NCBI GenBank assembly: GCA_903901045.1
Contig: CAIUPP010000099.1
Location: 1-41,885 of the forward strand
Direction: 5' to 3'
Source: an uncultured Planctomycetota bacterium
GTDB lineage: Bacteria > Planctomycetota > Brocadiia > CAIUPP01
Length of the DNA stretch: 41,885 bases
Part shown: piece after piece, positions 21,174 to 41,745 of the stretch
How the letters are laid out: each line of letters starts with the position of its first letter
Position numbering within the stretch: position 1 is the first letter of the stretch
Made by a program: the position numbers and the translations under genes
Notes under the pieces: model-generated
Seen by the model: only the letters and a program-made list of their open reading frames with translations
Told to the model about the DNA's origin: nothing
The model's database searches: none

Positions 21174-21273
21174 GAGCCCGCCCGCCCGGATGGCTTGACA
21201 AGAATGTGGGCCGCAGGACAGACTAGAACCTGTTTTGCTCTGTTGAAACCATGCCGGTTGGCAGGCCGAGCCG

Positions 21274-21317
21274 GTGGGGACACAAAACTTTCCTTTGGAA
21301 AGTTATTGTGTCCCCAC
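21274..21317. repeat. REP-like hairpin, GTGGGGACACAA family
   Basis: Arms 21274-21293 and 21297-21317 pair over 20 bases with a single-base bulge and a TTT loop. A half-site of the same family lies at 10891-10909. The 311-base gap 21097-21408 otherwise holds only the promoter at 21144-21173. Confidence 0.85.
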
Positions 21318-21408
21318 CTCGACCCGACAGGAACCGAGCGAACACGGGATGATTTTCGCATTCGCTGAACCACAGCGTTTTTTGCAGGTAAGCACCGAAA
21401 GGATTCAC

Positions 21409-28512: not shown

Positions 28513-28589
<77 letters not shown>

Positions 28590-28732: not shown

Positions 28733-29971
28733 ATGGCGAGCATGTACAAACGGGGCGACGTGTGGTGGATCCAGTACCGCATCGGGGGCAAGAACGTCCA
28801 GCGATCCCTCGACACCGAGAGCGAACAACTCGCAAAGCTGAAGATCAAACAAATGGAAGGGCTTCACGCCTCCGGACAACTCGGACTGCCGAGTCGCACG
28901 CCGATCGTGCCCTTCCTGGAAGTCTTCTGCCAACATCTTCAGCAACGACGTAGCAAGACCTCCTACCGCGCGGACATCTCGTACCTGCGGACGTTCTTCG
29001 GCCCGCTCTGCGATGCGCTGAAGACGAAGGCCGAACGAGAAGCGGAAAAGGAGAATGCCTCGGGCGCGAACGGAGACCTGTCTATTCCTGCATCCAGTGT
29101 TCCCGTGCGCTACCTCGAAGACGTGACGCCGGGCCTCGTTAACCACTTCATCTCCGGGCGGATCGAGACGGATGGCATTTCCCCAAAGACCGCCAATCGT
29201 ACGCGAGAGATACTTCACGTCGTGTTCAACTACGCGATCAAGCACCACGGCTTCGTGTCGCCCATTCGCGGCACCCGCAACCCGATCGAGAATGTGGAGA
29301 GGCTTTCCGAGCCAGCGCCGAATATCCGCTACCTGGAACTTGACGACATCGGTAAGCAACTCGAGGTGCTCGCCACGCGCCCGGTATTGCGGACGGCGGC
29401 GGCCATCTTGATCTATGCTGGACTGCGGCGTGAGGAATCTCTGTGGCTGACGAAGGAGGATGTTGACCTCAGCCAGCGCATTATCCGTGTCCGGGCGAAG
29501 ACGGAGGGCGGGGAGACCTGGCAACCGAAAACCAAGAGAAACCGAGCAGTACCGATCTCGAACGCGTTGATGGCCATCCTCAAGGAACACCAAATGGAGA
29601 AGGACTGCACTTGGTTCCTGCCTTCTCCGGAGGGTAAGCGTTGGCATCCCGATAACTTCTCGCACGCCCTTGCAGACGTCAACTCTAAGGCGGGTCTGCT
29701 CTGGGGTTGCCTCGACTTTCGTCACACCTTCGGCAGCCAACTGGCCATGAAGGGCGAGTCGCTGTACAAGATCAGCGAACTCATGGGGAACAGCCCGGAG
29801 ATTTGCCGCCGGCATTATGCCGCGCTGATCCCGGAGAAGATGCGTGATACAGTTGAATTCGATGTCCCTGCCGAAGTGAAAGCCGGTAAACTTCCTGCCA
29901 GCCGCGTCCGAGGTCGGAGAGGTCGCGAAGGCCAGAGTCGTCATGCTTTCGCTATAGTCCGGGTTGGATGA
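28733..29971 (+). CDS. Tyrosine recombinase / integrase
   Basis: This 412-residue site-specific recombinase presumably integrates and excises the island. The N-terminal SAM-like domain begins with YKRGDVWWIQYRIGGK. The catalytic domain shows Arg232 (AGLRREESLWL), candidate Lys266/268, Arg330-His331 in CLDFRHTFGSQLAM, and the nucleophile Tyr362 in MGNSPEICRRHYAAL. The usual His of the H-x-x-R box is Leu327, and the H/W position before the Tyr is Asn353. The same substitutions recur in some environmental integrases, so the enzyme may still be active. AAGGAG lies 7 bases before the ATG at 28733. An earlier frame extension is not supported. Confidence 0.93.
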   Translation: MASMYKRGDVWWIQYRIGGKNVQRSLDTESEQLAKLKIKQMEGLHASGQLGLPSRTPIVPFLEVFCQHLQQRRSKTSYRADISYLRTFFGPLCDALKTKAEREAEKENASGANGDLSIPASSVPVRYLEDVTPGLVNHFISGRIETDGISPKTANRTREILHVVFNYAIKHHGFVSPIRGTRNPIENVERLSEPAPNIRYLELDDIGKQLEVLATRPVLRTAAAILIYAGLRREESLWLTKEDVDLSQRIIRVRAKTEGGETWQPKTKRNRAVPISNALMAILKEHQMEKDCTWFLPSPEGKRWHPDNFSHALADVNSKAGLLWGCLDFRHTFGSQLAMKGESLYKISELMGNSPEICRRHYAALIPEKMRDTVEFDVPAEVKAGKLPASRVRGRRGREGQSRHAFAIVRVG

Positions 29972-30071: not shown

Positions 30072-30275
30072 CTAAGGCGCTCGACGTCGCGCCATATATG
30101 TTTCGACTTCATCCAGGCGGTATCGCTTCATGCCGTTCTTTCCGGACCCCAGGAAGTACGGACGAATACCGGCTTTCTTGAGAAGCCGGGAGACGGTGGA
30201 CGGGTAGCACTGCCATCTCTCGGCCAGTTCATGAGCGCTGGCCAACTTCGCCTCCGCGTGTAGATAGTTCTTCAT
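30072..30275 (-). CDS. Small helix-turn-helix protein, excisionase-like
   Basis: This 67-residue protein has an HTH at about residues 10-35 (ASAHELAERWQCYPSTVSRLLKKAGI) followed by a winged segment ending KRYRLDEVETYMARR. This matches the MerR-type HTH_17/excisionase layout, in which the small protein bends DNA for excision or represses the operon. A second possible start (ATG at 30305) would add ten residues; neither has a good ribosome site. It is the last minus-strand gene before the integrase and could be the recombination directionality factor, or a regulator of the ubiquitin-like operon. Function not proven. Confidence 0.7.
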   Translation of the reverse strand: MKNYLHAEAKLASAHELAERWQCYPSTVSRLLKKAGIRPYFLGSGKNGMKRYRLDEVETYMARRRAP

Positions 30276-30322
30276 GCTAGTGCTACTTCTTTTCAAGGCC
30301 TGCATCACACAGCAAACCACTT

Positions 30323-30757
30323 CTAAGACTGTCCGATTAACCCCACGTCGCACACGGGACAGTACCAGGTCACAAAGCTCTTCCTGGCACAGTCGTGGTG
30401 CACAAACTGTTGACAACTCGGACACAAGCTGGAGTCGCGTGCGGTAGCTCCCTGGCCACATCCTGGGCAGGTAAAACGGTTCGCAGGAACAGCTCCTGAC
30501 CGCTCCTCTGGATGGGAGACGCACTTTCCTTCCGAGAAAGTGAACCCTTCGTTATCGCGAGCCCAGTTCTCCGAGCCTCGCGTGACGACATATCCCTTTT
30601 TGACCTGCGCGTTGCACCACAAATCACTGCAAGTGGGGCTGCAAAAGTGATGCTTGTAGCCGGTAGCACCGTCCACCAGCACATAGGCGGTCTTTCTGAA
30701 CGACATGAAACCGATCCGACAATTGCAGTTCTCGCATTTTACACTCGCCATTTTCAT
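30323..30757 (-). CDS. RING/PHD-like double-zinc protein, candidate E3 ligase
   Basis: This 144-residue Cys-rich protein has two metal-binding parts. The N-terminal part has Cys8, Cys11, Cys13, Cys39 and Cys43, with HHFCSPTCSDLWC resembling a treble-clef knuckle. The C-terminal part has Cys97-x2-Cys100, Cys112-x2-Cys115-x4-His120-x2-Cys123 and Cys133-x2-Cys136, a full C4HC3 cross-brace as in RING/PHD fingers. RING domains linked to E1, E2, JAB and ubiquitin-like genes have been described in prokaryotes and are predicted E3 ligases. This one lies 74 bases after the JAMM-E1 gene, on the same strand. AAAGGAG precedes the ATG at 30757 by four bases; the ATG at 30751 is equally possible. E3 activity is inference. 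Confidence 0.75.
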   Translation of the reverse strand: MKMASVKCENCNCRIGFMSFRKTAYVLVDGATGYKHHFCSPTCSDLWCNAQVKKGYVVTRGSENWARDNEGFTFSEGKCVSHPEERSGAVPANRFTCPGCGQGATARDSSLCPSCQQFVHHDCARKSFVTWYCPVCDVGLIGQS

Positions 30758-30831
30758 CCATCTCCTTTCAAGGGGCGGCCATGTGGTCAGCCTCACCTCT
30801 TCTCCCGGCGAACAAGTGGGATATTGTCAAG

Positions 30832-32412
30832 TCAGTTCAACTTTTGGATATGCGGTCTTCTCCCACACAGCCACGACCAAAAGGGCATGCGATGAGTTTC
30901 ACCGTCGGCCTTTGCCGTTCCAGAATCATGGTTCGACACCTGGGCGACCTCCATGTCTGTGACCTTGCCACCGTCCCCCCCTTCTGGACATTCGGTTGGG
31001 CCAACCTCCATCAACTCCGTTGAGCCCGATCCGGGGTTCTCCTCAATAGGGTCTCCAGCTCCGAGAATTCCGCCGGGACCGCACGCAGGACACTCCGGGT
31101 TCGGCTTGCAGGCCACGGCCATGATGGAATCGCGGTTGCGGCTGTAGTACAAGTGCTCGTGGCCGGAGAAATCCTCTCCCTGGATAAGCTTTGCCATGTG
31201 CGATAGAGCCAGGCCGGTGAGAATCGCGTTAAGATGAATGACTGCCGGCGTCGGCGTGATCTGAGTATTACGAACATACCCTGCCCGTTCTCGCTGAAGG
31301 CGCCATCGGCGAGGCATCCGCTCCGCTGCGACCTCCTGTGTATCAATACCACCACAACAAAAAAGGCACCCGGTCTTGCCGGGGAGGACCACACGGACTT
31401 GACCGACGGAGTCATACTTGCCGCCACCCACTGGAACGATCTCTGTGGCGACGTCCAAGTAAGGAATCAAGTAGCGTAGGGAGAGTTCCATCAAAGCGCT
31501 ACGAGCCGCTTCGGAGTCCACACAACCGACGAGCAGGTGCGCCGTCTTGAGTGCCTCCCGAGCCCAGAACGACTGCACCCCCAAACAGTAGGGACGGACT
31601 CGGACGCGCCGGTCACGCCGGTAATGAAAGAGCTTTGCGATGCGGACTTTGAAATGGCTAGCGTCCTTGGGGCCAGCATAAGGCAATCTCGGCAGGTTGG
31701 ACTTTTCCACGCGATCGGGGTCGCAAATGATGATACCGGCCTGCCTTCCCACGCCCATGCCCACGAGTCCCTGCAACATGAGGGCACCCGTTCCGCCGCA
31801 ACCTGCAAGGCCGACACGGACGGCGGCCAGGCGGGACTGGTTCCACCCGGAAATCAGGCTGTGTCGGGCGAAAAGCTCCTGATCGGAAGCGGTCAACTCA
31901 TCGGGCGCCGGCATACAGGAGATTGGCGACCCGAGGAGTTCGACTCGGTGGAGAATGTCGAAGCGCCTCGCCTCTGGATCGTATATTCTTCCTTCGAAGG
32001 CCGTGGCCTCCTGATTGAGAACTACCATTCCCATCCGGCACTTTGACGGGAAGTGTTCAGTGACATAGGCGGCGTTCATCTGGCCGTGGTGGTCATCAAT
32101 AGAACTGAAATGCGGCTGCCCGGCATGCGTATGCGTATGAAGATCAATGATGGACAAGTCCTCGTCGTGTGCCAACTGATAGGCCAGCCCTTGGAGTTTG
32201 CGGCCGGGTCGCGCATACCCGGCCGACTGTATTTCCATATCCTTTCTTTCCGCGAAGATCATCTTTTGGCCCAGGAAAATCTCTTCTCCCAATTGTGAAA
32301 CCGCTCGGCGGGCTAACAAGAAACCGAACTGTTCCACCTGGGGGGTGTTCCTGATGAAGTCGTGTATTTGCGCCCATTGGTTCTGGGTCAGGCGCAGGAC
32401 AGTTGTTTTCAT
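30832..32412 (-). CDS. JAMM deconjugase fused to E1/ThiF activating enzyme
   Basis: This 526-residue protein joins two ubiquitin-cycle activities. Residues 1-165 form a JAB/MPN domain with Glu27 (EQFGFLL) and the zinc motif His94-x-His96-x7-Ser104-x2-Asp107, all intact. Such enzymes cut isopeptide bonds or trim modifiers. Residues about 195-440 form an E1-like adenylation domain with GLAGCGGTGA (Gly204-x-Gly-Gly-x-Gly209), DPDRVEKSNLPRL (Asp231, Asp233, Asn239, Arg242) and a zinc site built from Cys349-x2-Cys352 and Cys441-x2-Cys444. A Gly/Glu-rich low-complexity tail (about 448-505) ends in FWSWLCGRR. AAGGAG lies 6 bases before the ATG at 32412, inside the end of the E2 gene. A ThiF/MoeB role in cofactor sulfur transfer is unlikely given the E2 neighbour. 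Confidence 0.92.
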   Translation of the reverse strand: MKTTVLRLTQNQWAQIHDFIRNTPQVEQFGFLLARRAVSQLGEEIFLGQKMIFAERKDMEIQSAGYARPGRKLQGLAYQLAHDEDLSIIDLHTHTHAGQPHFSSIDDHHGQMNAAYVTEHFPSKCRMGMVVLNQEATAFEGRIYDPEARRFDILHRVELLGSPISCMPAPDELTASDQELFARHSLISGWNQSRLAAVRVGLAGCGGTGALMLQGLVGMGVGRQAGIIICDPDRVEKSNLPRLPYAGPKDASHFKVRIAKLFHYRRDRRVRVRPYCLGVQSFWAREALKTAHLLVGCVDSEAARSALMELSLRYLIPYLDVATEIVPVGGGKYDSVGQVRVVLPGKTGCLFCCGGIDTQEVAAERMPRRWRLQRERAGYVRNTQITPTPAVIHLNAILTGLALSHMAKLIQGEDFSGHEHLYYSRNRDSIMAVACKPNPECPACGPGGILGAGDPIEENPGSGSTELMEVGPTECPEGGDGGKVTDMEVAQVSNHDSGTAKADGETHRMPFWSWLCGRRPHIQKLN

Positions 32413-32423
32413 AATCGTCTCCT

Positions 32424-32813
32424 TCAAAGCCGCGGATTCGTCAGGTCAGCGCGAACCCGCTCAAGCAGAGAGATAAGGTTGTCTCGGTTAGGCACCCAAT
32501 CAATGCTCTCGTAACAGAGCCACGCCCACTCCTTTCCCCCGACAGTGTGATCCTCGTGATAATCTCTGGGCACATGCCCGTGATACCGCAAGCCCGGCTC
32601 AAGAAAGATTGGGCTGGCGGGCGCCCCCGGAGGACTCAGTGGATAGTCCTCCGGGATTTGGATGCGCATCCGCGTGTGTGTGCGATTCCAGCCTGGAGGC
32701 AACCGTACATCTTGGACAATGACGGTGCCCAAGTCACGCGAGGCCAGCACCTTGCACACAATCGAGAGCGCCTTGAGATGACGCAGCAAGACGGTGACAT
32801 TACGCAGGCCCAT
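32424..32813 (-). CDS. E2-like ubiquitin-conjugating protein
   Basis: This 129-residue single-domain protein keeps the order of E2 landmarks. A beta-strand region is followed by IPEDYPLSPPGAP (the E2 YP-x-x-PP segment, residues 53-65), a His-containing RYHGHVP in place of HPN, and WAWLCYESIDW with the candidate catalytic Cys100. Then comes VPNRDNLISLLERVRADLTNP, matching the W-x-P...DP tail of E2s. It would take the activated modifier from the E1 as a thioester. The gene starts two bases after the ubiquitin-like stop, and its GAGGGG ribosome site lies within the last codons of that gene, so the two are coupled. Its sequence is distant from eukaryotic E2s; it fits the predicted bacterial E2 families. 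Confidence 0.85.
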   Translation of the reverse strand: MGLRNVTVLLRHLKALSIVCKVLASRDLGTVIVQDVRLPPGWNRTHTRMRIQIPEDYPLSPPGAPASPIFLEPGLRYHGHVPRDYHEDHTVGGKEWAWLCYESIDWVPNRDNLISLLERVRADLTNPRL

Positions 32814-32815
32814 GG

Positions 32816-33037
32816 CTATTCCCCTCGTTCGGCGCGTGGCGCGTCAACGAAGACGTCGCCTGGCCTAACCAAACTCTTTCCAGCTGGCGGAAGAATCTCA
32901 TTACTGCCGTCAGCGTGTTGTACGATCAGCGCACGTCCGGCCGATCCACTGTTACTGCGCATTTGACTGATATCCACGTATCCGTCAGCGTCTTCTTCCA
33001 CTTCGTGTACCTGGCCATTAGCACTAATGAGTCGCAT
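32816..33037 (-). CDS. Ubiquitin-like beta-grasp protein candidate
   Basis: This 73-residue protein starts at the ATG at 33037 (AAGGAG 8 bases upstream); a GTG three codons earlier overlaps that site and is rejected. It begins with a beta-hairpin-like stretch (MRLISANGQVHEVEED) and ends with LVRPGDVFVDAPRAERGE. The GD-x-F strand resembles the end of the bacterial multiubiquitin/Ubl fold. Size and position directly before an E2 and an E1 support a modifier role. The C-terminus is not Gly-Gly but Arg-Gly-Glu: removal of the final Glu by the fused JAMM domain would expose Gly72. Fold assignment is by pattern and context only. Its start lies six bases after the preceding stop. Confidence 0.68.
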   Translation of the reverse strand: MRLISANGQVHEVEEDADGYVDISQMRSNSGSAGRALIVQHADGSNEILPPAGKSLVRPGDVFVDAPRAERGE

Positions 33038-33042
33038 AGCTT

Positions 33043-33273
33043 TCACTCCTTACCAGAAAAGCGTTTTCCAGATGATTCGCCGGAGGCGCGCTGGCGCCCT
33101 CGCGTAAAGGACCAGTACATCTCCTCCTGACCGTTCGCAGTTCTCGGACTTCGACCGGCAGTACGCGTCCGAGACTCGGGCCCTGAACGCGGCCCTAACA
33201 ACCCATGGCGCCGCAAAATCCTCGGAGTCCAGACGAGGACTGTGACGAGGCCAACGAGTTCAAGTAACCCCAT
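33043..33273 (-). CDS. Small single-span membrane protein in the ubiquitin-like operon
   Basis: This 76-residue protein has one N-terminal hydrophobic segment (LLELVGLVTVLVW, about residues 3-15) and a long basic, Ser/Arg-rich tail. The consensus ribosome site AAAGGAGG lies five bases before the ATG at 33273, strong evidence that it is translated. No family is recognised. It sits directly upstream of the ubiquitin-like gene and downstream of another small gene. The basic tail could face the cytoplasm and anchor conjugation components, but that is speculation. Confidence 0.6.
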   Translation of the reverse strand: MGLLELVGLVTVLVWTPRILRRHGLLGPRSGPESRTRTAGRSPRTANGQEEMYWSFTRGRQRASGESSGKRFSGKE

Positions 33274-33285
33274 ACCCACCTCCTT

Positions 33286-33513
33286 TCATTTCAAACAGGG
33301 CCTTTGAGCCGTTCGAGTATGTTGAGAAACCCGTTCACTTAGCATGCACGGCCCGCATGCTCCATTTCGCAAAGTTCTCTTCGGCCACTTTCTGGCGGGC
33401 GCTCTTGACGACGGGCGTCTTTCTAGGGGGCGGCGCACACGCGAGTGGCGGAGACCATCGGGCGATGAGCCTATTCCCCACGGATCATTGATGTACGTTT
33501 TCTGGCGATTCAT
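33286..33513 (-). CDS. Small basic protein, translationally coupled
   Basis: This 75-residue, strongly basic protein has many Arg residues and one CGPC motif (near residue 53). Its ATG overlaps the stop of the upstream membrane protein as ATGA (33513-33510) and GGAGG lies five bases before it, which supports translation. No family and no membrane segment are recognised. The alternative, that this is a chance frame in the spacer, is not excluded. Confidence 0.5.
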   Translation of the reverse strand: MNRQKTYINDPWGIGSSPDGLRHSRVRRPLERRPSSRAPARKWPKRTLRNGACGPCMLSERVSQHTRTAQRPCLK

Positions 33514-33746
33514 CGCCGCCTCCGGTTCAAGACGAGGAAGTAGGCCGTAACGTAGAGCAGCGCCAAGACCATCACGACCAAGGTGAAGCGGCCAAACGAC
33601 GGCATGGCCCAGATGGTGTCGCAGAACTCCCGCCACATCTCCGCCAATTTGAGTGCTGCCAAGGCGCCGGCGATTGCGCGATGGTAGGCGAGAAGGATGA
33701 TGATTCCCACCACGACCAAGATTGCGCGCCAATTGATGCGGGCCAT
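33510..33746 (-). CDS. Small two-span membrane protein
   Basis: This 78-residue protein has two clear hydrophobic helices (about residues 8-31 and 53-73), a short loop (EMWREFCDTIW) and an Arg4 C-terminus. AGGAG lies seven bases before the ATG at 33746, nine bases after the ATPase stop. No family is recognised. It could be the membrane partner of the upstream ATPase. Confidence 0.7.
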   Translation of the reverse strand: MARINWRAILVVVGIIILLAYHRAIAGALAALKLAEMWREFCDTIWAMPSFGRFTLVVMVLALLYVTAYFLVLNRRRR

Positions 33747-33755
33747 GGCTCTCTC

Positions 33756-35894
33756 CTATTGCTCCCGGTTCTTCTTAGTAAGAGTGCTGAACAAAACCAA
33801 ACGCACGCGGTGCCTCAAATCCGGAGGAAGACCCGACCGATTGAGGCGTTTCATAACGGCTTGTCGAACGGCATGGTCGCGGCACAGGAAGACAATTCTC
33901 CGAAATCCCTCGCCACCACATTTGACGGCATTGCCAACGATGTTGGTAATATTGCTCGTAATTTCCCAGGCCTCAATGCTTCCGTCTTTCCGATGGACGC
34001 ACATGTCAACGGCAGATCCCTTAGTGTCCACCGGCACGTCCACCTCAATCCGGTCCACCGATGGTTCTTTCGCGATGAAATGTCTGGCCATCGCCTGCAG
34101 GAAGGCGTGTTCCAGCGACGGACCGAAGAGCCAGGTCGGCGGTTCCTGGTCAAGGATTCCGTATCCCTTCTTAGTTGCGATGAGATAGACCGCTTGGCCT
34201 ACCAGGACGGAGGGAGCGTAATCGGATTGTTCCAACACGCGGCGATCCGCTAGGCCGGCGCGCGCTGAGGACCCAAGCCGGATCAGCCGGTCGCTGTACA
34301 TGCTGAATGGATAGGAAATGAGGTCCCAAAGGAGGCGTGCTGCACCCGGCGGAAGATCCAATGGCGCCTCCGGCTTTCTGCCGAGTTCTCCGGCGGGCGG
34401 AGCCGGCGGCACGTCAGGCACCGAGACGGGCGGCCGGACCACCACCACTTCCCGGAAGTCCCACAAGGGTTTCCATGGGATGATATCGAGACCCTCCACG
34501 AACGCCTTCCCTTCCTCTTCGGCCCGGCGGATATCCCCAGTCGGGGCGGCCACGTCGGGGGTCCATCCATGAATCGGGTAGCGCCACTGACCGCTTGTGT
34601 ACTGCCCCACCACTTCGCGCGCGACCATGCGGCCCAGTTGCTGCTGTTGCTCGCTGTTCAAGCCCATCAACTTGGCCACGACCTCTCGGTCATCGCCGGC
34701 ATGAACTCCGCCGACCACCAGGCGCAAATTACACAAAGCGAGAATACCCTGATCCATCTCCGATGGCCGGTGTGTCACGTAGAGTACCCCGCATCCGCTA
34801 CTCCGAAGGACAGCGTGGAGATGTGTCAGGGGCGAGGTCAGGACGGCGCCGAGTTCGCGGGAGACAAACCGCGTGGCATCATCAATGATGAGCAGAAGTT
34901 CCAGTTTGTCGGTCGCTGGACGGCGCTGGGCTTCCTTATAGAGGTAGTACAGGAGCGTAAGGATGAACAGCCGACAGACCCATGCATCGGTGATGTGCCG
35001 GAAACGCAGGATCACGTTACGCTCCCCCACGAGGCGCCGGATAGAGGCGCCCTTCCGGCAGACGAAGAGGTTTCCGCTACCCAATTCGATCCGCTGAAAT
35101 GCCGTATCGGCGGCCTGAAGGTAACCGGCACGCCTGTACTCCTGCGCTCCCTCAACCATTGGCAGCGTCAAGCGATGGTCACGCAGGCTGAGCTCAAAGG
35201 GTTGGCCCGACACCCTGCGCGCCACTTCCAGTTGCGGGAGCAGAATTTCGCCGGTTTCCTGGATCGGGCCGATGCTCTGGATCAGGTTCGGGATGCCCCC
35301 CACTTGGGGCAAGAGTTCGTGGAGATAGCTCCGGCGATCCTCCCCCTCGGGCGGGCCGAAGTCGTGGGAAATATCCGTCTCATCTATGACTGCCGCATCC
35401 AATTCCTGTGCATACTCGGCCAATTCCCCTTTGGGGTCCACGATGAAAAAGCGCCGTCTCGTCTGACGGAGCTGTTTACCCAGATGCACAACCAACCGCG
35501 TCTTTCCAGACATTTGCGGCCCAATCAGGACGCCGCCTCGCAGGAGGATATCGGGTTGAAGGTACCACTCGACGTTGTCCACCTGGTTAATAATGTGCAG
35601 TTCGCCTTCATTGAGCATCTCTGCCGTGGCGTACGGCCGGTATGCGTCGGGATTGCGGATGGCGTCCTTCCCGCACGCGTCAATTGCCGCGAGAAGGCGC
35701 TCGCGCGCTTGCGCTCTCGTCCCTGGCCACCCAAGCGATGCGACGCGTAGCAATTCCTGAATCTCAGGCCGGTAGATCAGCCCCGTTTCGCGCAGGTCCT
35801 TCTCTATTTGATCAAGCTCAGGGTCGGCGTCCAGCCTCCTGAACCCGTCATCGCCAAGAAAGCCCGTGTTCAGTTTTCGGTCCAGCGGTTTCAT
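33756..35894 (-). CDS. HerA/VirD4-type ATPase with C-terminal nuclease-like domain
   Basis: This 712-residue P-loop ATPase belongs to the FtsK/HerA/VirD4 superfamily. Walker A is GPQMSGKT (residues 125-132), followed by FFIVDPKGEL, a phrase typical of type IV coupling proteins; Walker B is LLLIIDD (333-339), followed by a YVTHRP sensor segment. A Pro-rich linker (about 485-515) leads to a C-terminal domain (about 590-712). There SAVDMCVHRKDGSIEAWEIT (Asp630, Glu644) resembles the D...E-x-(K/T) core of PD-(D/E)xK nucleases; that reading is weak. Such ATPases pump DNA or protein through hexameric rings. Its ATG overlaps the upstream stop (ATGA, 35894-35891). Its role in a ubiquitin-like operon is unknown: substrate transfer, DNA processing, or a conjugation target. 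Confidence 0.85.
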   Translation of the reverse strand: MKPLDRKLNTGFLGDDGFRRLDADPELDQIEKDLRETGLIYRPEIQELLRVASLGWPGTRAQARERLLAAIDACGKDAIRNPDAYRPYATAEMLNEGELHIINQVDNVEWYLQPDILLRGGVLIGPQMSGKTRLVVHLGKQLRQTRRRFFIVDPKGELAEYAQELDAAVIDETDISHDFGPPEGEDRRSYLHELLPQVGGIPNLIQSIGPIQETGEILLPQLEVARRVSGQPFELSLRDHRLTLPMVEGAQEYRRAGYLQAADTAFQRIELGSGNLFVCRKGASIRRLVGERNVILRFRHITDAWVCRLFILTLLYYLYKEAQRRPATDKLELLLIIDDATRFVSRELGAVLTSPLTHLHAVLRSSGCGVLYVTHRPSEMDQGILALCNLRLVVGGVHAGDDREVVAKLMGLNSEQQQQLGRMVAREVVGQYTSGQWRYPIHGWTPDVAAPTGDIRRAEEEGKAFVEGLDIIPWKPLWDFREVVVVRPPVSVPDVPPAPPAGELGRKPEAPLDLPPGAARLLWDLISYPFSMYSDRLIRLGSSARAGLADRRVLEQSDYAPSVLVGQAVYLIATKKGYGILDQEPPTWLFGPSLEHAFLQAMARHFIAKEPSVDRIEVDVPVDTKGSAVDMCVHRKDGSIEAWEITSNITNIVGNAVKCGGEGFRRIVFLCRDHAVRQAVMKRLNRSGLPPDLRHRVRLVLFSTLTKKNREQ

Positions 35895-36484
35895 TGCAGC
35901 CGATCCTCCGGTGGCTTCACGAACGGGAAGGTGAGCGCGCGGACGATCTTGCCGAAGAATTGGGCGCGCTTGGATTCTTCAAGACATGCGGGGCAGAGAT
36001 AGACGGCAGGAGAGGTATCGTCTGGCTGGAAGGCAAGTGCATGTCGGTGACAGGTGGCACGGCGACAGGCGGCGCACTCCGTTCTGCACGCGGTGCAGAA
36101 CAGGCTGTGCTGCTCAGCCGCGACGGGGTCCATGACACCGGCGACCACCATCTCTTGGGCTTCGAGCATACAGAACGCGCAACGCCCGCCAAGTTGCTCG
36201 TAGCTTTCGATCAGGTGGCCGTCCCCACCGACCACGCCGCGCACGTCGCGGACTCTGTCCAGGGAACCATCGGGCCCGGCAGAGACAGCTTGTATCACAG
36301 AAAAAGAGACTCGCGTTCCGGGGATCGTCTGACGTTCAACAGTGCGCTCAATGGGCCGGCCGGGCGGGATCGGCAGTTCGTCGCTGGTCAAAGGTTGATT
36401 CGGCGCCGACGCCGGCGGGCGAGCCGCACCTTGCGACGAGCGGCCGAAAAGGTACCGGAGCCAGGTTCGTGGCGTTTCAAACAT
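35891..36484 (-). CDS. Cys-rich zinc-binding protein
   Basis: This 197-residue protein has a disordered Pro-rich N-terminus (about 20-50) and a metal-binding region: Cys102-x2-Cys105, Cys130-x2-Cys133, Cys137-x2-Cys140, Cys145 with His146/His148, and Cys164-x2-Cys167. That is enough for two or three zinc ions in a cross-brace or B-box-like arrangement. No catalytic residues are seen. AAAGGA lies five bases before the ATG at 36484. It is directly coupled to the ATPase gene. B-box/treble-clef proteins paired with membrane ATPases are known in prokaryotes; a binding platform for the modifier is a reasonable guess. Confidence 0.75.
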   Translation of the reverse strand: MFETPRTWLRYLFGRSSQGAARPPASAPNQPLTSDELPIPPGRPIERTVERQTIPGTRVSFSVIQAVSAGPDGSLDRVRDVRGVVGGDGHLIESYEQLGGRCAFCMLEAQEMVVAGVMDPVAAEQHSLFCTACRTECAACRRATCHRHALAFQPDDTSPAVYLCPACLEESKRAQFFGKIVRALTFPFVKPPEDRLQ

Positions 36485-36493
36485 ACGTTTCCT

Positions 36494-36664
36494 TTACCAG
36501 CTATGGCCGAAGACGAGACGATGGAGAAGCTGGCCGACCCGAGCGCATGTGGCCACTGCTATGTAGGCTCCCAACGTGGCGAGAGCTGTTCCGGCAATCA
36601 GGACACAAAGTACGATCGTTCCACGCATTCCTACTTCCAGTTTCTCGCCGAGTTCCTTCAACAT
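36494..36664 (-). CDS. First gene of the operon: small membrane protein
   Basis: This 56-residue protein has one strong hydrophobic helix (TIVLCVLIAGTALATLGAYIAVA). The ATG at 36664 has only a weak GGA seven bases upstream; a TTG 18 bases earlier (36682) and an internal ATG (MRGTIV) are alternatives. It precedes the zinc protein by nine bases. No family is recognised. Confidence 0.6.
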   Translation of the reverse strand: MLKELGEKLEVGMRGTIVLCVLIAGTALATLGAYIAVATCARVGQLLHRLVFGHSW

Positions 36665-36706
36665 GGCTAATCCGCCAACCAACTTTGTGGGGTACTTTCT
36701 AGCTGA

Positions 36707-36735
36707 AGGCTATTACGCGAAAAGCCACATGTCAA
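36707..36735 (-). promoter_or_regulatory. Candidate promoter of the ubiquitin-like operon
   Basis: On the minus strand a perfect TTGACA (36735-36730) is followed after 17 bases by TAGCCT (36712-36707). The -10 is poor; TAATAG lies closer but at only a 14-base spacing. It is the only good -35 in the 262-base divergent gap. Confidence 0.4.
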
Positions 36736-36829
36736 GTCCTATCATGCTGTCGAATAATGAGATACAGCGCTTACGATTTGCGGAAATACTGGCGGATATG
36801 TGTACCCACAGTAGTGCTTGGAACCATGC

Positions 36830-36858
36830 TTGTTGATATGAGGTCCGCGTGATATGCT
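36830..36858 (+). promoter_or_regulatory. Candidate promoter of the NACHT gene
   Basis: TTGTTG (36830-36835), 17 bases, and TATGCT (36853-36858) with a TG extension just upstream. Transcription would start near 36865, within the tandem 12-base repeat. Confidence 0.45.
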
Positions 36859-36862
36859 TCCA

Positions 36863-36886
36863 CTTGCGGAACCGCTTGCGGAACTG
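36863..36886 (+). repeat. Tandem 12-base repeat, candidate operator
   Basis: CTTGCGGAACCG is followed immediately by CTTGCGGAACTG. One mismatch in 12 bases and the location at the predicted transcription start make it a plausible binding site for a repressor. Confidence 0.55.
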
Positions 36887-36926
36887 CAATTGTTGACACA
36901 AGTTTTTTCTCGCCAGGCGGGGAGAA

Positions 36927-39900
36927 ATGCGTAAGCCAAGGCATGAAGGATCACCGTTGGCCGGCCTTGCCTTTCTGATAGAGTCAACGGCGCCGGCTGG
37001 CCGCATGATCCGTGAAGTATTCTTTCGAGTACGTCAGCGGGGCGCAAAGTGGCAACGCGCAGGTGTAGACCCGTCAAAGCATAAGAGCTATTGGTTCTAC
37101 GCCGCTCTCTTCTCCTTCGCAGTCCGAACGCTAGATCGTCTGAAGAGGTTACCGTCTGCCAACGTCATGGCCGGACAGGGTGACTCACAAATCATCCTCA
37201 CTATCCACGCCAGCGACCCTGTTTGCGGTGACTTGGTACAACATTTCTACCGTGTTCGGCATAGCAAGAGACACTCTCGACACCCCGCTCACACAGCTAT
37301 CTCGCCGGACTTGGCCGCAGGCGCTCAGGTCGTCTTCAAGGCACGTTCAGGAACTGGCAAAGCGGAGTGTGCACGTGTTGAGGTCCAATCGTCAGCGGGC
37401 AACATTGAAATCTACTTCTGGAAACCAGAGCGACTCCCTGAGTCTGCTGTCAATGCCGCAGGGGAGCTAGGATTCCCGTTCTTAAGAGGTGAGATGCCAC
37501 CGGATGACTTCGCGCTGGAAGAATTGCTGACAATAGCCAGACGGGAGCGGCCACCATTCCGCAGCCGAGACTGGATCGAACTGTATCGTAGAGCCGCTCT
37601 GTTTGAACCCTCGATGTTCGCTCTAATCCCGATGAAGGGGGATCACGTTGAAGAGCGGAGTCTAGGGCATGCATTATCTTCCCCAAACGCGTCAGGAAGC
37701 ACCACGGCCATTCCCTTTCATCCAGAGACGTTCTCGCTGGACGAAATGGTTCAACGTCACGGGCGCGTGGTACTCACAGCGCCAGCTGGGGGGGGCAAGA
37801 CGACGCTTCTGAATTCGCTGCTGCGCAAACACCTGAGCCGGATGAACGATGGTCGTGGTGACGGACATATCGTTTTTGCGATAAGATTAGGAAACGTTGG
37901 GCGCGTAAAGGCCGGGGCAAACGTCGCAAAATGGATAGCGGGGTCGGTTCGAGACTGCATCAGTCGCTTGGATATCCGCGACCTTGAGCAGGTTCAACTT
38001 CCGGCTGGGCGACGGGCGAGAAGACTCAACGTGCAAACACTGACAAAGGAAGAGGTCCTTGCCGAAATAGGAAAGCAGGTTGAAGTGTGGTTTGAGTCAG
38101 GGCAGTTACCACAAGACAAGATGCTACTTCTCCTCGATGGCTATAACGAGGCACCGTTGGACTCTCGTGCATCAATAGACCGCGGGATCGAGGTGCTGAC
38201 TGCGAAGGGGTTCCACTTCATTCTTGCATCTCGTGTCGCTGAACTCCCGTCGCTATCGGCCGCGGTTCAGGAGTTCAGGTTGCAGACATTGTCTGACCGG
38301 CAAATTGTCTACTACCTTAGACAGTGGTTTCCTGGAAAAGGAAGGGATCTATTTGATAGTTGCATCGCTTCTGACAGTGGCATTCTAGCCATGGCGCAAA
38401 ATCCGTTCTTCTTGAACCTTATCGCCAATTGGATTCACATGAATCCGACACGGCCCATCCCCGACACTCATGGCCATCTCATCAGGTGGTTCGTACGGGA
38501 ATGTGCTTATCGTAAGCGAAGGACTGACGAGGTGGGCATCCCGGATATTCCAGATCGTGTGAAGGACCGGGTTCTAGGGGAGATCGGTTACGTGATGTTG
38601 CGGAACGTAACTTTGGAGCCACACGAAGAGCCCATTCGGTATCCGATGAAGTCGAGCGACCAGTCTCTGGAAGGATGGCCACTTCATGAAGTCCTGGACG
38701 TTGCAGAAGCTGAGGGGCTGCTGCGAGTAACAGAGACTAACGTCATTCATGGTGGCAGAGATTACGAGTTTGGACACGACTATTTCCGGGACTACTTTGC
38801 TTCCTTGTACCTGCATGGCCTCAGGAGAGAAGTACTTGTGCGAGAGATGCGTGAGCTAAGCGAGTTCTTTGCGTGGGACAATAGCATTATAATGTTCTTC
38901 GAGCACGCAACCCAGAAGGAACAGGAGAATGTGGCTGCTGCTTTTGATTGCATTAGCAGACTTGCTCCCATCCTTGCCAGCCGATGCGCATATGCCTGGC
39001 GCTATGTGGACAGACAGAGGGTGGTAGCACTTCTTGGAGTTACCTGCAGCGACTACGCAACGGCGTTGCATCGCTGGTATTTCACCAAAGAGTCCGCTAG
39101 TGATGTCTCATTGCCCGCTCACTTCCCTGATAAATTGGTTGGTGCCGCAGCATATGTTCTCGGAAGACTCCCCAAAATGGAAGTCGCTAGGCTGGCGCGG
39201 TCCCAACCTGTGTCAAGCCTTCGTGAACAAGCTGCTATACTGGTGTCGCTATCCTGGAAAGAGGAGGAAAGACTGCCGCTGTTGTTGGATCTTGTTCGAC
39301 GCCCTTTCCCGAATTGCACATTGGCAATATGGGGCCTTTCTCTTTGTCAATCACCCAAGGCGTGGCAGGCCATGGTGGACCGTTTGTCGATTGAATCGAG
39401 TGCGCCCTCCAATGATGCTGAATGGGATATCTTCCACATCCTTTCCGCTTCGAATGCTGTCGTCCCAGTAGACCAGGCACTTCAGGCATATGAACGCGCC
39501 CCCTCGTGGTTTCCGCCTCGGTGCAAAGGGGCTCTTCTTAAGGCCCTTGCCAATGCGCCGCAGGAGCAGGTTGGGCTGGTACTTAAGCTCTTAGACGATC
39601 CCCGGGAACTGGTGCGAATATACGCTTGCGCGGCAGTTCGCGACGCAAAATGGAGGCCGCCCGACGAAGCTATTACTTCGCGGCTACGCGATGCGTCCGT
39701 CGATTTGTTGTGTTCAAGTTTCTATCATATCATGCTCCAGGTCGTGGTAAAATGCGTTACACCAACTTACGAACCGGTATTGCTTGCGCTGCTTGAGCGG
39801 ATTGTTGCTCAGGATTCTGACGCTGCGATGGGGGAGTATTCTTTAAACAAAGTTACGGCCTTGCGGGAGACTGTGGGACGCATTTGCAGTGCTTTGTCGA

Positions 39901-40664
39901 GAATACCGGGGCAGAGGTCATTTGATCTACGGCTCAAAGTGGCATCTAACCCCTACAGTTGGTTCAGGAGGGAGGTAACATCTGGTCTCATCGAGCATGA
40001 TAGTACAGTCATGAATGCACTTACGTGCAATCCCGGCAAAGGTCAAGGACCGGTTGAAGAGGCCGCAGTCCTACTGCTGGCCTGGCGATATAGTGCCGCT
40101 AGCTCGAAGGGCACCTACTCAGACGAAGGGATGAAGGTCATGGTTTTGGCCCTGCGGGAGCTTTGTCAGTCGAGCGTCTGGACTAAACCTGCGCACCCGC
40201 CCCCCCTCGATGCTAAGGGCGACATTTCTATACTCGATAGCCATGGCCCAGTCGGAACGATGGTTGCAGACATATATCATTGGTTCTACTTCTCCAAACG
40301 CGCTCACGAGTGCCGCGAGTTGATAGACTTGATGCACAGCAGGTCGGTTCCGCTGGTAATCCGTCGGGCATTCAAGCAGGTACTTCGCAGAAACCAGGAT
40401 GAACCATTGCCGCCGATGCCGGAGCTTTCCGTCGCCGCTACGGAAGAGAGTATTGGCCGTTGGCGCCTTTGTGTGGACCACAGCGTCAAGGAACGCAGAA
40501 TTAAGGAAGCCATAGAGGACTTTGATATAATTAATGAATTATGTGCCTATGGGGGCCGGCGATATCTGCGAGCACTGAAAGGGTTTCCGTGTTCCCCCAG
40601 CAGACGAGAAGCAAAGGGGGCTGAACTCGGGAGAAGATCCGCTGGACCTCCAGCGGTCTCGTAA
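36927..40664 (+). CDS. NACHT/STAND-type NTPase with C-terminal repeats
   Basis: This 1245-residue protein has three parts. Residues 1-270 are an N-terminal domain that I do not recognise, possibly the effector. Residues about 270-600 are a NACHT NTPase with Walker A APAGGGKTT (285-293), Walker B LLLLDGYNEAP (400-410, acidic Asp404 and Glu408) and the sensor FILASR. The C-terminal 600 residues contain degenerate helical repeats of HEAT/ARM type (LLDDPRELVRIYACAAVRDAKW) fit for sensing. Bacterial NACHT proteins of this size act in anti-phage immunity. The ATG at 36927 is preceded closely by GGGGAG; an ATG 26 codons later is an alternative. It is divergent from the ubiquitin-like operon and has the lowest GC in the window. 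Confidence 0.85.
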   Translation: MRKPRHEGSPLAGLAFLIESTAPAGRMIREVFFRVRQRGAKWQRAGVDPSKHKSYWFYAALFSFAVRTLDRLKRLPSANVMAGQGDSQIILTIHASDPVCGDLVQHFYRVRHSKRHSRHPAHTAISPDLAAGAQVVFKARSGTGKAECARVEVQSSAGNIEIYFWKPERLPESAVNAAGELGFPFLRGEMPPDDFALEELLTIARRERPPFRSRDWIELYRRAALFEPSMFALIPMKGDHVEERSLGHALSSPNASGSTTAIPFHPETFSLDEMVQRHGRVVLTAPAGGGKTTLLNSLLRKHLSRMNDGRGDGHIVFAIRLGNVGRVKAGANVAKWIAGSVRDCISRLDIRDLEQVQLPAGRRARRLNVQTLTKEEVLAEIGKQVEVWFESGQLPQDKMLLLLDGYNEAPLDSRASIDRGIEVLTAKGFHFILASRVAELPSLSAAVQEFRLQTLSDRQIVYYLRQWFPGKGRDLFDSCIASDSGILAMAQNPFFLNLIANWIHMNPTRPIPDTHGHLIRWFVRECAYRKRRTDEVGIPDIPDRVKDRVLGEIGYVMLRNVTLEPHEEPIRYPMKSSDQSLEGWPLHEVLDVAEAEGLLRVTETNVIHGGRDYEFGHDYFRDYFASLYLHGLRREVLVREMRELSEFFAWDNSIIMFFEHATQKEQENVAAAFDCISRLAPILASRCAYAWRYVDRQRVVALLGVTCSDYATALHRWYFTKESASDVSLPAHFPDKLVGAAAYVLGRLPKMEVARLARSQPVSSLREQAAILVSLSWKEEERLPLLLDLVRRPFPNCTLAIWGLSLCQSPKAWQAMVDRLSIESSAPSNDAEWDIFHILSASNAVVPVDQALQAYERAPSWFPPRCKGALLKALANAPQEQVGLVLKLLDDPRELVRIYACAAVRDAKWRPPDEAITSRLRDASVDLLCSSFYHIMLQVVVKCVTPTYEPVLLALLERIVAQDSDAAMGEYSLNKVTALRETVGRICSALSRIPGQRSFDLRLKVASNPYSWFRREVTSGLIEHDSTVMNALTCNPGKGQGPVEEAAVLLLAWRYSAASSKGTYSDEGMKVMVLALRELCQSSVWTKPAHPPPLDAKGDISILDSHGPVGTMVADIYHWFYFSKRAHECRELIDLMHSRSVPLVIRRAFKQVLRRNQDEPLPPMPELSVAATEESIGRWRLCVDHSVKERRIKEAIEDFDIINELCAYGGRRYLRALKGFPCSPSRREAKGAELGRRSAGPPAVS

Positions 40665-40689: not shown

Positions 40690-41745
40690 TCAGCTTTCGT
40701 AAAGAAAGCGCTCGCCTGTGCTTGTGAGTTTGATCTTTCTGATTCTGCCTGTCTGTGTGAATTCTGCATGGTCTTCAATCATCCCTGCCTCCAGAAGTCT
40801 GAGCTTCAACTTCTGCCCTTGCCTGACGCTGATCTTGAGCCGCTTGTACCTTTCTGCGATGCCGCATTCGGGATGAGCGACCACGTCATTGAGAAACGCC
40901 GCCACGAAATCGTCCGTCTCTGGCTTGGCCAGTGCAATTGATGGCAGAGAAGGCACTGGCGGCGCCGGCAGCTTGTGCTCCTGGTTTGAGATTCCTTGCA
41001 GTTCGTGCTCCCCTTCCATTCCCATTCGCGCTCGTACCATCTCATCCGTGACTGCGCCCTTAACGATCTGGAACTGGGGAATACGAATCAGGAACGGGGC
41101 TTGGACTCTTCCCTGCAACTTGACTACGGCCTGACCGACTTCCAGGCTGCCGAGAATATCTTTTTCCTCATTTTCAAGAAGCATGCACTGGGCCATGGCG
41201 CTCACGTCTTTTGACGTTTTGAGATTAAGCGATATAGTCGCGAATGTGTTACCAAGAGCCGACAGGGAGATTTGACTCGGGTGTTGATCGAGAATTACGA
41301 CCGACTCCCCAAACTCTCTGATCTCCCTAAATGTGATGTCCATAACACTTTGCCCACCCACCAGGCTCTTTCGTTCGTCGGCTAGGAGATGATGCGCCTC
41401 CTCGATTACGATAGCGTGCTTGAACTGCTCCCGTGTCGGTTCGATCATCCTGCGATGATGAATCCACAACAAGAGCGCCGAGGCTACGAACACCTTGTCA
41501 GATTGCGAGAGGGCGTCCAATTCGAGAATGACGGTCTGATCGAGAAGTCCTTCGGGGCTGCCGGCTGAGGGATGATTCACCAGGTCGCCCATGTCGCCGA
41601 AGCAGATGCTAGCCAGAGCCCTCAGGGTCGAAGACAGCCACCCGGCTTCTCTTCCTCGTACATCGAGCTTTCTTGCCTTGTCCAGGACATCCTGAAAGGT
41701 CGGCCACCGCTGCACGGTGCCATCGTAGACACCAAATTCGTGGTA
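40690..41745 (-). pseudogene. 5'-truncated HerA-like ATPase
   Basis: The frame encodes the C-terminal part of a HerA/DUF87-type ATPase. It has the Walker B-like AIVIEEAHHLL, then REFGESVVILDQHPSQIS and ISLNLKTSKDVSAMA, and a C-terminal winged-helix-like segment (GIAERYKRLKISVRQGQKLKLRLLEAGM). No Walker A is present. Upstream in frame the protein-like sequence YHEFGVYDGTVQRW runs back to a TAA at 41748-41746, exactly where the GTTATGTGGAG-type repeats begin, so the N-terminal half has been lost. A GTG at 41715 could start a 341-residue product without a P-loop. The gene is convergent with the NACHT gene, 25 bases apart, so the two may once have been neighbours by insertion rather than by design. 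Confidence 0.75.

Follow-up and report, generated by a model that had tools for sequence, protein, structure and literature searches.

Why does a mobile element in a bacterial genome carry a complete ubiquitin-like conjugation set beside a HerA/VirD4-type ATPase? The locus that raises this question lies on contig C99 of a 4.77-Mb Planctomycetota genome (G000; labels in G, L and C denote genomes, loci and contigs), and this contig of 41,885 nt is the window analysed here. An operon on its minus strand is transcribed in the order transmembrane (TM) peptide, zinc protein, ATPase, two-TM peptide, small protein, ubiquitin-like (Ubl) modifier, E2-like protein, JAMM-E1 fusion and C4HC3 zinc protein; the products range in length from 56 to 712 amino acids (aa). 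A second, diverged copy (copy 2) lies in the same genome on contig C108, at a tRNA-Ser (positions 1-20000 of L014, corresponding to 8000-27999 of C108 in G000). Our best answer, held with even confidence either way, is that the Bub-type Ubl cassette is an interchangeable switch that controls a DNA-motor ATPase linked to the membrane, on a tRNA-targeting element and most likely directed against invading phage or conjugative DNA.

The conjugation cassette and the small gene ahead of it are as follows:

30832..32412, minus strand: JAMM peptidase-E1 fusion of 526 aa, BubCD type, with an alternative TTG start at 32427; from profile matches and alignments
32424..32813, minus strand: E2-like protein of 129 aa, with Cys100 in WAWLCYES; from matches to Prok-E2_E and BubB
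32816..33037, minus strand: ubiquitin-like modifier of 73 aa, ending APRAERG-E; from an AlphaFold 2 (AF2) model and the C-terminal Arg-Gly
33043..33279, minus strand: small protein of 78 aa, GTG start, one predicted TM segment; 70% identical in copy 2, with a ratio of nonsynonymous to synonymous divergence (dN/dS) of 0.37

An earlier note on this DNA had proposed a complete modifier, E1, E2 and JAMM set at 30323-36664, and all the genes that it placed there are present. The set is indeed complete. The ThiF domain of the JAMM-E1 protein scores above the Pfam cut-off (E 3.7e-26), the JAMM residues E27, H92, H94, S103 and D106 are invariant across six relatives, and the best solved relative, Citrobacter BubCD, matches nearly the whole chain (E 3e-66). 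Two zinc CxxC pairs supply the sole invariant cysteines of this protein in alignments of six and of ten sequences. The 129-aa protein proved to be an E2 of the Prok-E2_E family (E 4.9e-7, above the Pfam cut-off), nearest to Citrobacter BubB (E 3e-10 with a wide profile, 8e-6 with a narrow one); Cys100 is kept in six of seven relatives and is Ser in the seventh, and it has no counterpart in BubB in the alignment of the two. For the modifier, sequence searches returned no family match, including none to the multiubiquitin Pfam families. Its proposed beta-grasp fold is borne out by the AF2 model (pLDDT 77.5), in which 62-70 of the 73 residues can be aligned with ubiquitin, NEDD8 and Citrobacter BubA (VIA Z 7.2-7.8), and Foldseek ranks bacterial multi-ubiquitin proteins at the top, with weak E-values. 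The protein is a single domain without tandem repeats. In several structural alignments the aligned range stops at its Gly72 and at residue 76 of ubiquitin, and across eight diverged relatives ArgGly is invariant and is followed by one residue (E, R, C, W, G, V or A) or by DKK. As this invariant pair with its variable tail of one to three residues stands beside an intact JAMM domain, the modifier is probably made as a precursor that the JAMM domain trims. No homologue of the small protein at 33043..33279 was found in G160 or G702.

The remaining genes of the operon's constant part, which we call the platform, are:

33510..33746, minus strand: two-TM peptide of 78 aa, with a homologue right after the ATPase in Ubl, TerY-P and Hsp70 relatives; dN/dS 0.25
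33756..35894, minus strand: HerA/VirD4-type ATPase of 712 aa, with a RecA-like core (about 82-464), a region like a winged helix-turn-helix (HTH; about 516-571) and a C-terminal alpha/beta domain (about 594-702)
35891..36484, minus strand: zinc protein of 197 aa (CxxC, CxxC, CxxH, CxxC), the constant partner of the ATPase
36494..36664, minus strand: single-TM peptide of 56 aa, with homologues at the same place in copy 2, L059 and L058

The ATPase carries the Walker A motif GPQxxGK and the Walker B acidic pair of the HerA/VirD4 superfamily, in agreement with the initial assignment. In a VIA structural search covering residues 82-464 only, its RecA-like core was nearest to DndH-C, HerA, VirB4 and TrwB (Z 24-27), with the DndH-C of a restriction system as the best match; the best PADLOC match is mad8 (E 4e-12). 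Conserved D630 and E644-x-T646, together with an alpha-beta-beta-beta-alpha-beta order, suggest that the C-terminal domain may adopt a PD-(D/E)xK-like fold minus the usual Lys. In the genomes searched, each strong match to the zinc protein directly adjoins such an ATPase, and a short TM peptide follows the ATPase in nearly every platform member. Every estimable dN/dS between the two genomic copies (Ubl, E2, JAMM-E1, zinc protein and small membrane genes, where synonymous divergence, dS, could be estimated) falls between 0.10 and 0.37, so these are real coding genes; an alternative 148-aa frame at 33286-33732 was rejected as coding (dN/dS 0.86 and two stops in copy 2). Two details of the proposed operon needed correction. 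The first membrane peptide exists, with its start moved to 36664 and a length of 56 aa, and the upstream genes are not all joined by overlaps or short spacers, as 230 bp separate the 78-aa two-TM gene from the next small gene.

The earlier note had made its proposal depend on a conserved neighbourhood, and the search for one found it in other genomes, with the upstream ATPase, zinc and membrane genes as part of the set. The order zinc protein, ATPase, TM peptide, Ubl, E2, JAMM-E1 occurs in the window, on C108 and in G160, G702 (locus L029, from a Sedimentisphaerales metagenome-assembled genome) and G741. G735 has the same platform-cassette order with no recognised Ubl gene, and the order is partial in G507, where a contig end cuts the locus, and in G685, which is partly resolved. 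Five of six Phycisphaerae JAMM-E1 matches above 400 bits are linked to the ATPase, and for the sixth, in G638, the contig starts just upstream. A first contig scan with a single JAMM-E1 sequence returned nothing; an alignment-based JAMM-E1 scan found L029 and L030. Scans of IMG/VR with the ATPase and with JAMM-E1 returned no relatives. The distribution is accessory and mobile (5/392 genomes in one search and 21/397 in another, distant ATPases included), and among 75 genomes of the host's own class the system is present in this genome only, which points to horizontal gain.

The platform is not always paired with a Ubl cassette. In G723 the slot is filled by a TerY-P triad, namely a vWA protein (PADLOC TerY, E 3e-18), a PP2C phosphatase (E 4e-5) and a Ser/Thr kinase (Pkinase, E 8e-10). 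The G517 slot contains GrpE, Hsp70, a vWA protein and a small protein of DnaJ-like type, and Hsp70-type genes also occupy the slot in G577 and in the more distant G437 and G541; G548 was labelled Hsp70-type by similarity, its middle genes not being cleanly called. The host genome itself has a third, distant platform on C121 (zinc protein, mad8-like ATPase and TM peptide; L027 8087-16416), whose slot contains a vWA-type protein, a 982-aa protein without a Pfam match and a lone ThiF protein with CxxC pairs. The ATPases of the TerY-P element G723 and the Ubl element G702 share 58% identity, and the G723 protein forms a group with those of G702 and G160 at 100/100. In the ATPase tree the Ubl elements do not form one clade, and the starred branches require the Ubl label to change at least three times. 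When the two copies of the host genome are compared, dS is low across the cassette (Ubl 0.34, E2 0.33, JAMM-E1 0.30) and high across the platform (TM62 1.8, zinc protein 2.8, ATPase saturated), and therefore the cassette moved between the copies on its own. The balance leans slightly towards an undescribed family of tRNA-integrating elements of Planctomycetota, with a constant platform of zinc protein, DNA motor and TM peptide and a slot for Ubl, TerY-P or Hsp70/GrpE switches, three chemistries that in this setting would have one function, the arming or release of a shared ATPase.

How might such a switch work? Three reversible ways of altering protein state (conjugation and deconjugation, phosphorylation and dephosphorylation, Hsp70/GrpE cycling) share one slot next to this ATPase, which is most simply explained if the cassette governs the platform and does not itself act on an invader. 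The JAMM domain would trim the Ubl precursor after its ArgGly, and the E1 domain would adenylate the exposed Gly. Since the E1 has no conserved Cys beyond its zinc pairs, the simplest chemistry is direct transfer of the Ubl from its adenylate to Cys100 of the E2. The E2 would then link it to the ATPase, the zinc protein or the TM peptide of the platform, altering the assembly or activity of the ATPase, and the JAMM domain would take it off again. In the sister elements a kinase and PP2C, or Hsp70 and GrpE, would do the same job on the same platform. The output would be a gated DNA pump at the membrane.

Several points weigh against this account. The ATPase model is middling (pLDDT 74.6, pTM 0.53). 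In G735 (L060 5370-7217) a BubCD-type JAMM-E1 is present, Ser replaces the E2 Cys and no Ubl is recognisable between the TM peptide and the E2; the ATPase of this genome is, as a separate observation, split into two overlapping open reading frames (ORFs). Alternatively, sensing could fall to the ATPase, with the Ubl as an effector directed at something else. Finally, none of the 544 catalogued Bub operons has been shown to stop phage (PMC13373217).

The setting of the operon bears on its purpose. At its 3' side lie:

28513..28589, plus strand: tRNA-Met (CAT), the integration target of the element, found with ARAGORN, 144 bp from the integrase
28733..29971, plus strand: tyrosine integrase of 412 aa, with homologous integrases at the same end of the G160 and G702 elements
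30072..30278, minus strand: small HTH (excisionase-like) protein, start approximate, from sequence inspection, with an HTH gene at the same place in related elements

GC content drops from about 65% to 55-60% at 28.5 kb, at the tRNA-Met followed by the integrase. Each of the ten elements checked has a tRNA gene at its integrase (Met, Ser, Phe, Phe, Val, Met, Asp, Ser, Arg and Met). A second copy of the tRNA-Met 3' end, sought as the far end of the element, was not found in the window, and in G001 other tRNAs precede the Mfd gene, so that genome offers no clean empty site. The Mfd gene adjoining the element is 70% identical to that of a same-family genome, so contig C99 belongs to the host lineage, and contamination was rejected. 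A repeat of about 45-90 bp at 21235-21325 of the window recurs in several copies on C108 (30769-37739), on both strands.

Beyond the other end of the operon are two further genes, the first divergent from it:

36927..40664, plus strand: divergent STAND (NACHT) NTPase of 1245 aa, a possible sensor or companion, with a NACHT match (E 9e-6) just under the Pfam cut-off
40690..41715, minus strand: C-terminal part (ORF as called) of a second HerA-like ATPase, 86% identical beside copy 2 and 33% beside the G160 element

STAND genes also stand beside the G160, G735 and G517 platforms, divergently in the window, G160 and G735; apart from the window, the loci are L025 12502-15750, L059 2993-6496 and L060 11520-14097. 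The N-termini of the G160, G735 and G517 proteins show no clear homology to that of the window protein. G702 and G723 have only a protein of about 300 aa, a homologue of the N-terminal region of the STAND proteins in G160 and G517. The second HerA-like ATPase recurs on related elements (L014 5080-6771 and L025 17689-18993), in G160 with a D/ExE-type alpha/beta domain at the C-terminus; the ATPases of G297, G125 and G338 are of this second type, lack the platform and were rejected as platform members. A radical-SAM-like gene (CGHGC/DCLYC(S/T) motif) likewise recurs beside elements and related ATPases (L027 16599-17879, L088 3911-5365, L089 12754-13752 and L108 9900-10940).

Defence is the likeliest purpose because of the element-borne location, the STAND neighbours and the kinship of the ATPase to defence ATPases. 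The main rival is transfer or maintenance of the element itself, with the ATPase as a VirD4/HerA-like coupling or partition motor and the cassette regulating transfer, excision or stability. Integrase, HTH gene and tRNA are always present, TrwB and VirB4 are among the fold relatives of the ATPase along with HerA, and another HerA-like ATPase rides on the same elements. However, no relaxase or mating-pair gene was noticed on reading the elements, the ATPase (like the C4HC3 protein) has no match on 72,556 plasmids, and its best fold match comes from a restriction system, so we consider this explanation unlikely.

It is similarly improbable that the Ubl is itself the weapon, conjugated to phage or invader proteins and disabling them as in Bil, with the ATPase, zinc and membrane proteins only detecting infection or delivering the machinery. 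Bil, which is anti-phage, is made of the same kinds of enzyme, the elements place the cassette beside STAND NTPases, and known anti-phage complexes include HerA-type ATPases. Yet the nearest enzymes are those of Bub, and a kinase and phosphatase or Hsp70 in the same slot are hard to square with a single direct attack on virion proteins. A general stress response, in which the cassette modifies host proteins after damage to DNA or envelope and is not specifically tied to invaders, is very unlikely: Bub operons are often regulated by DNA damage and are not proven anti-phage (PMC13373217), but the distribution is that of an accessory, mobile system, and no CapW, CapH and CapP or CapK and CapS (regulators common, though not universal, in Bub) were recognised in Pfam, NCBIfam or PADLOC matches of ten genes from 30323-40664.

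One gene that had been counted among the distinctive components, as RING-like, turns out to be peripheral:

30323..30751, minus strand: two-part zinc protein of 142 aa, N-terminally CxxC/TRASH-like and C-terminally a C4HC3 treble clef of PHD/RING/C1 kind, on weak matches only

The gene and its C4HC3 pattern are as described, and domain searches gave no significant RING match, only weak matches of C1 and PHD kind; the C4HC3 pattern, with Trp before the last CxxC, arguably suits a PHD finger no less than a RING. The gene is intact only in the window. On C108 the first 38 aa of the GTG-started ORF are 94.7% identical, after which the copy stops, with a resolvase gene downstream; in G160, G702 and G507 a membrane protein of about 95 aa replaces it. 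A RING E3 as a component of the system was therefore rejected, being neither conserved nor significantly matched, and the C4HC3 protein may be a lineage-specific adaptor or E3.

How does the system compare with those already known? The enzymes are of Bub type. The JAMM-E1 fusion, put forward as a distinguishing feature, is not new: BubCD has this arrangement, which was predicted in 2006 in an operon type (row 6e) with polyUbl, E2-like protein, JAB-E1 fusion and metal-binding protein, alongside one solo-Ubl case (Iyer 2006, PMC1779556). JAMM-E1 corresponds to BubCD, the E2 to BubB and the Ubl fold to BubA, in the order Ubl, E2, JAMM-E1, again without a conserved Cys in the E1 beyond the zinc pairs. 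In contrast, BubA usually has two or three tandem Ubl domains where the modifier here has one of 73 aa, the E2 here keeps a true Cys where the aligned BubB has none, and the cassette is joined to a platform of zinc protein, ATPase and TM peptide with a tRNA-targeting integrase. Bil (BilABCD), which also unites Ubl, E1, E2 and JAMM in one operon and had been named among the known relatives, keeps JAMM (BilC) and E1 (BilD) separate, whereas a single 526-aa protein fuses them here beside extra platform genes; Bub is the closest characterised relative, and membership in Bil was rejected on this and on the fusion, Bil being set apart by description, without direct comparison of the sequences.

Other relatives share parts of the whole. 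TerY-P triads (vWA, PP2C and Ser/Thr kinase) are add-on switches of other defence systems (PMC11090510), and one occupies the slot in the sister element G723 where the window has its Ubl cassette. The ATPase is like mad8 of MADS, whose mad6 is a kinase related to that of G723; the other genes of the mad1-mad8 set were not recognised here. SIR2-HerA/Nezha, HerA-DUF4297 and DndFGH share the fold of the ATPase core (Z 20-27), but a zinc protein and an exchangeable cassette take the place of a SIR2, DUF4297 or Dnd partner. Complete Ubl conjugation sets occur in the FtsH-ternary Ubl-E1-E2-RING-JAB type, linked to an ATPase (Kaur 2020, PMC7159879), and in the Caldiarchaeum operon, with a RING E3 (PMC5654768); unlike the present set, these include a true RING, their ATPases are MoxR/FtsH, and the FtsH-ternary type has JAB and E1 as separate proteins. 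The RING-associated Ubl operons (Burroughs 2011) are likewise set apart by a conserved RING E3, which this system lacks. CBASS type II (Cap2/Cap3) has an E2-E1 fusion with a CD-NTase, whereas the E2 here is a separate gene and no CD-NTase match was seen among the genes scanned. Nor does the system belong to PRTRC, which pairs a ThiF equivalog of its own with PRTRC proteins A-F: the PRTRC_ThiF profile scores 33.9 against a cut-off of 144.75.

The new part is provisionally the setting, that is, platform, mobile element and cassette swap: neither the zinc-ATPase-TM platform nor the swap was found described in the literature searched, which excluded the key Bub papers and Burroughs 2011. For the role of Bub, a Bub-type cassette on a platform with interchangeable cassettes gives a testable hypothesis, namely that conjugation targets and controls the neighbouring ATPase. 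If so, Ubl tagging, phosphorylation and Hsp70 would be alternative inputs of one bacterial machine. The combination of a compact Ubl with a single Gly, an E1 without a conserved catalytic Cys and an E2 that keeps its Cys may also help to place the chemistry of Bub relative to the eukaryotic pathway.

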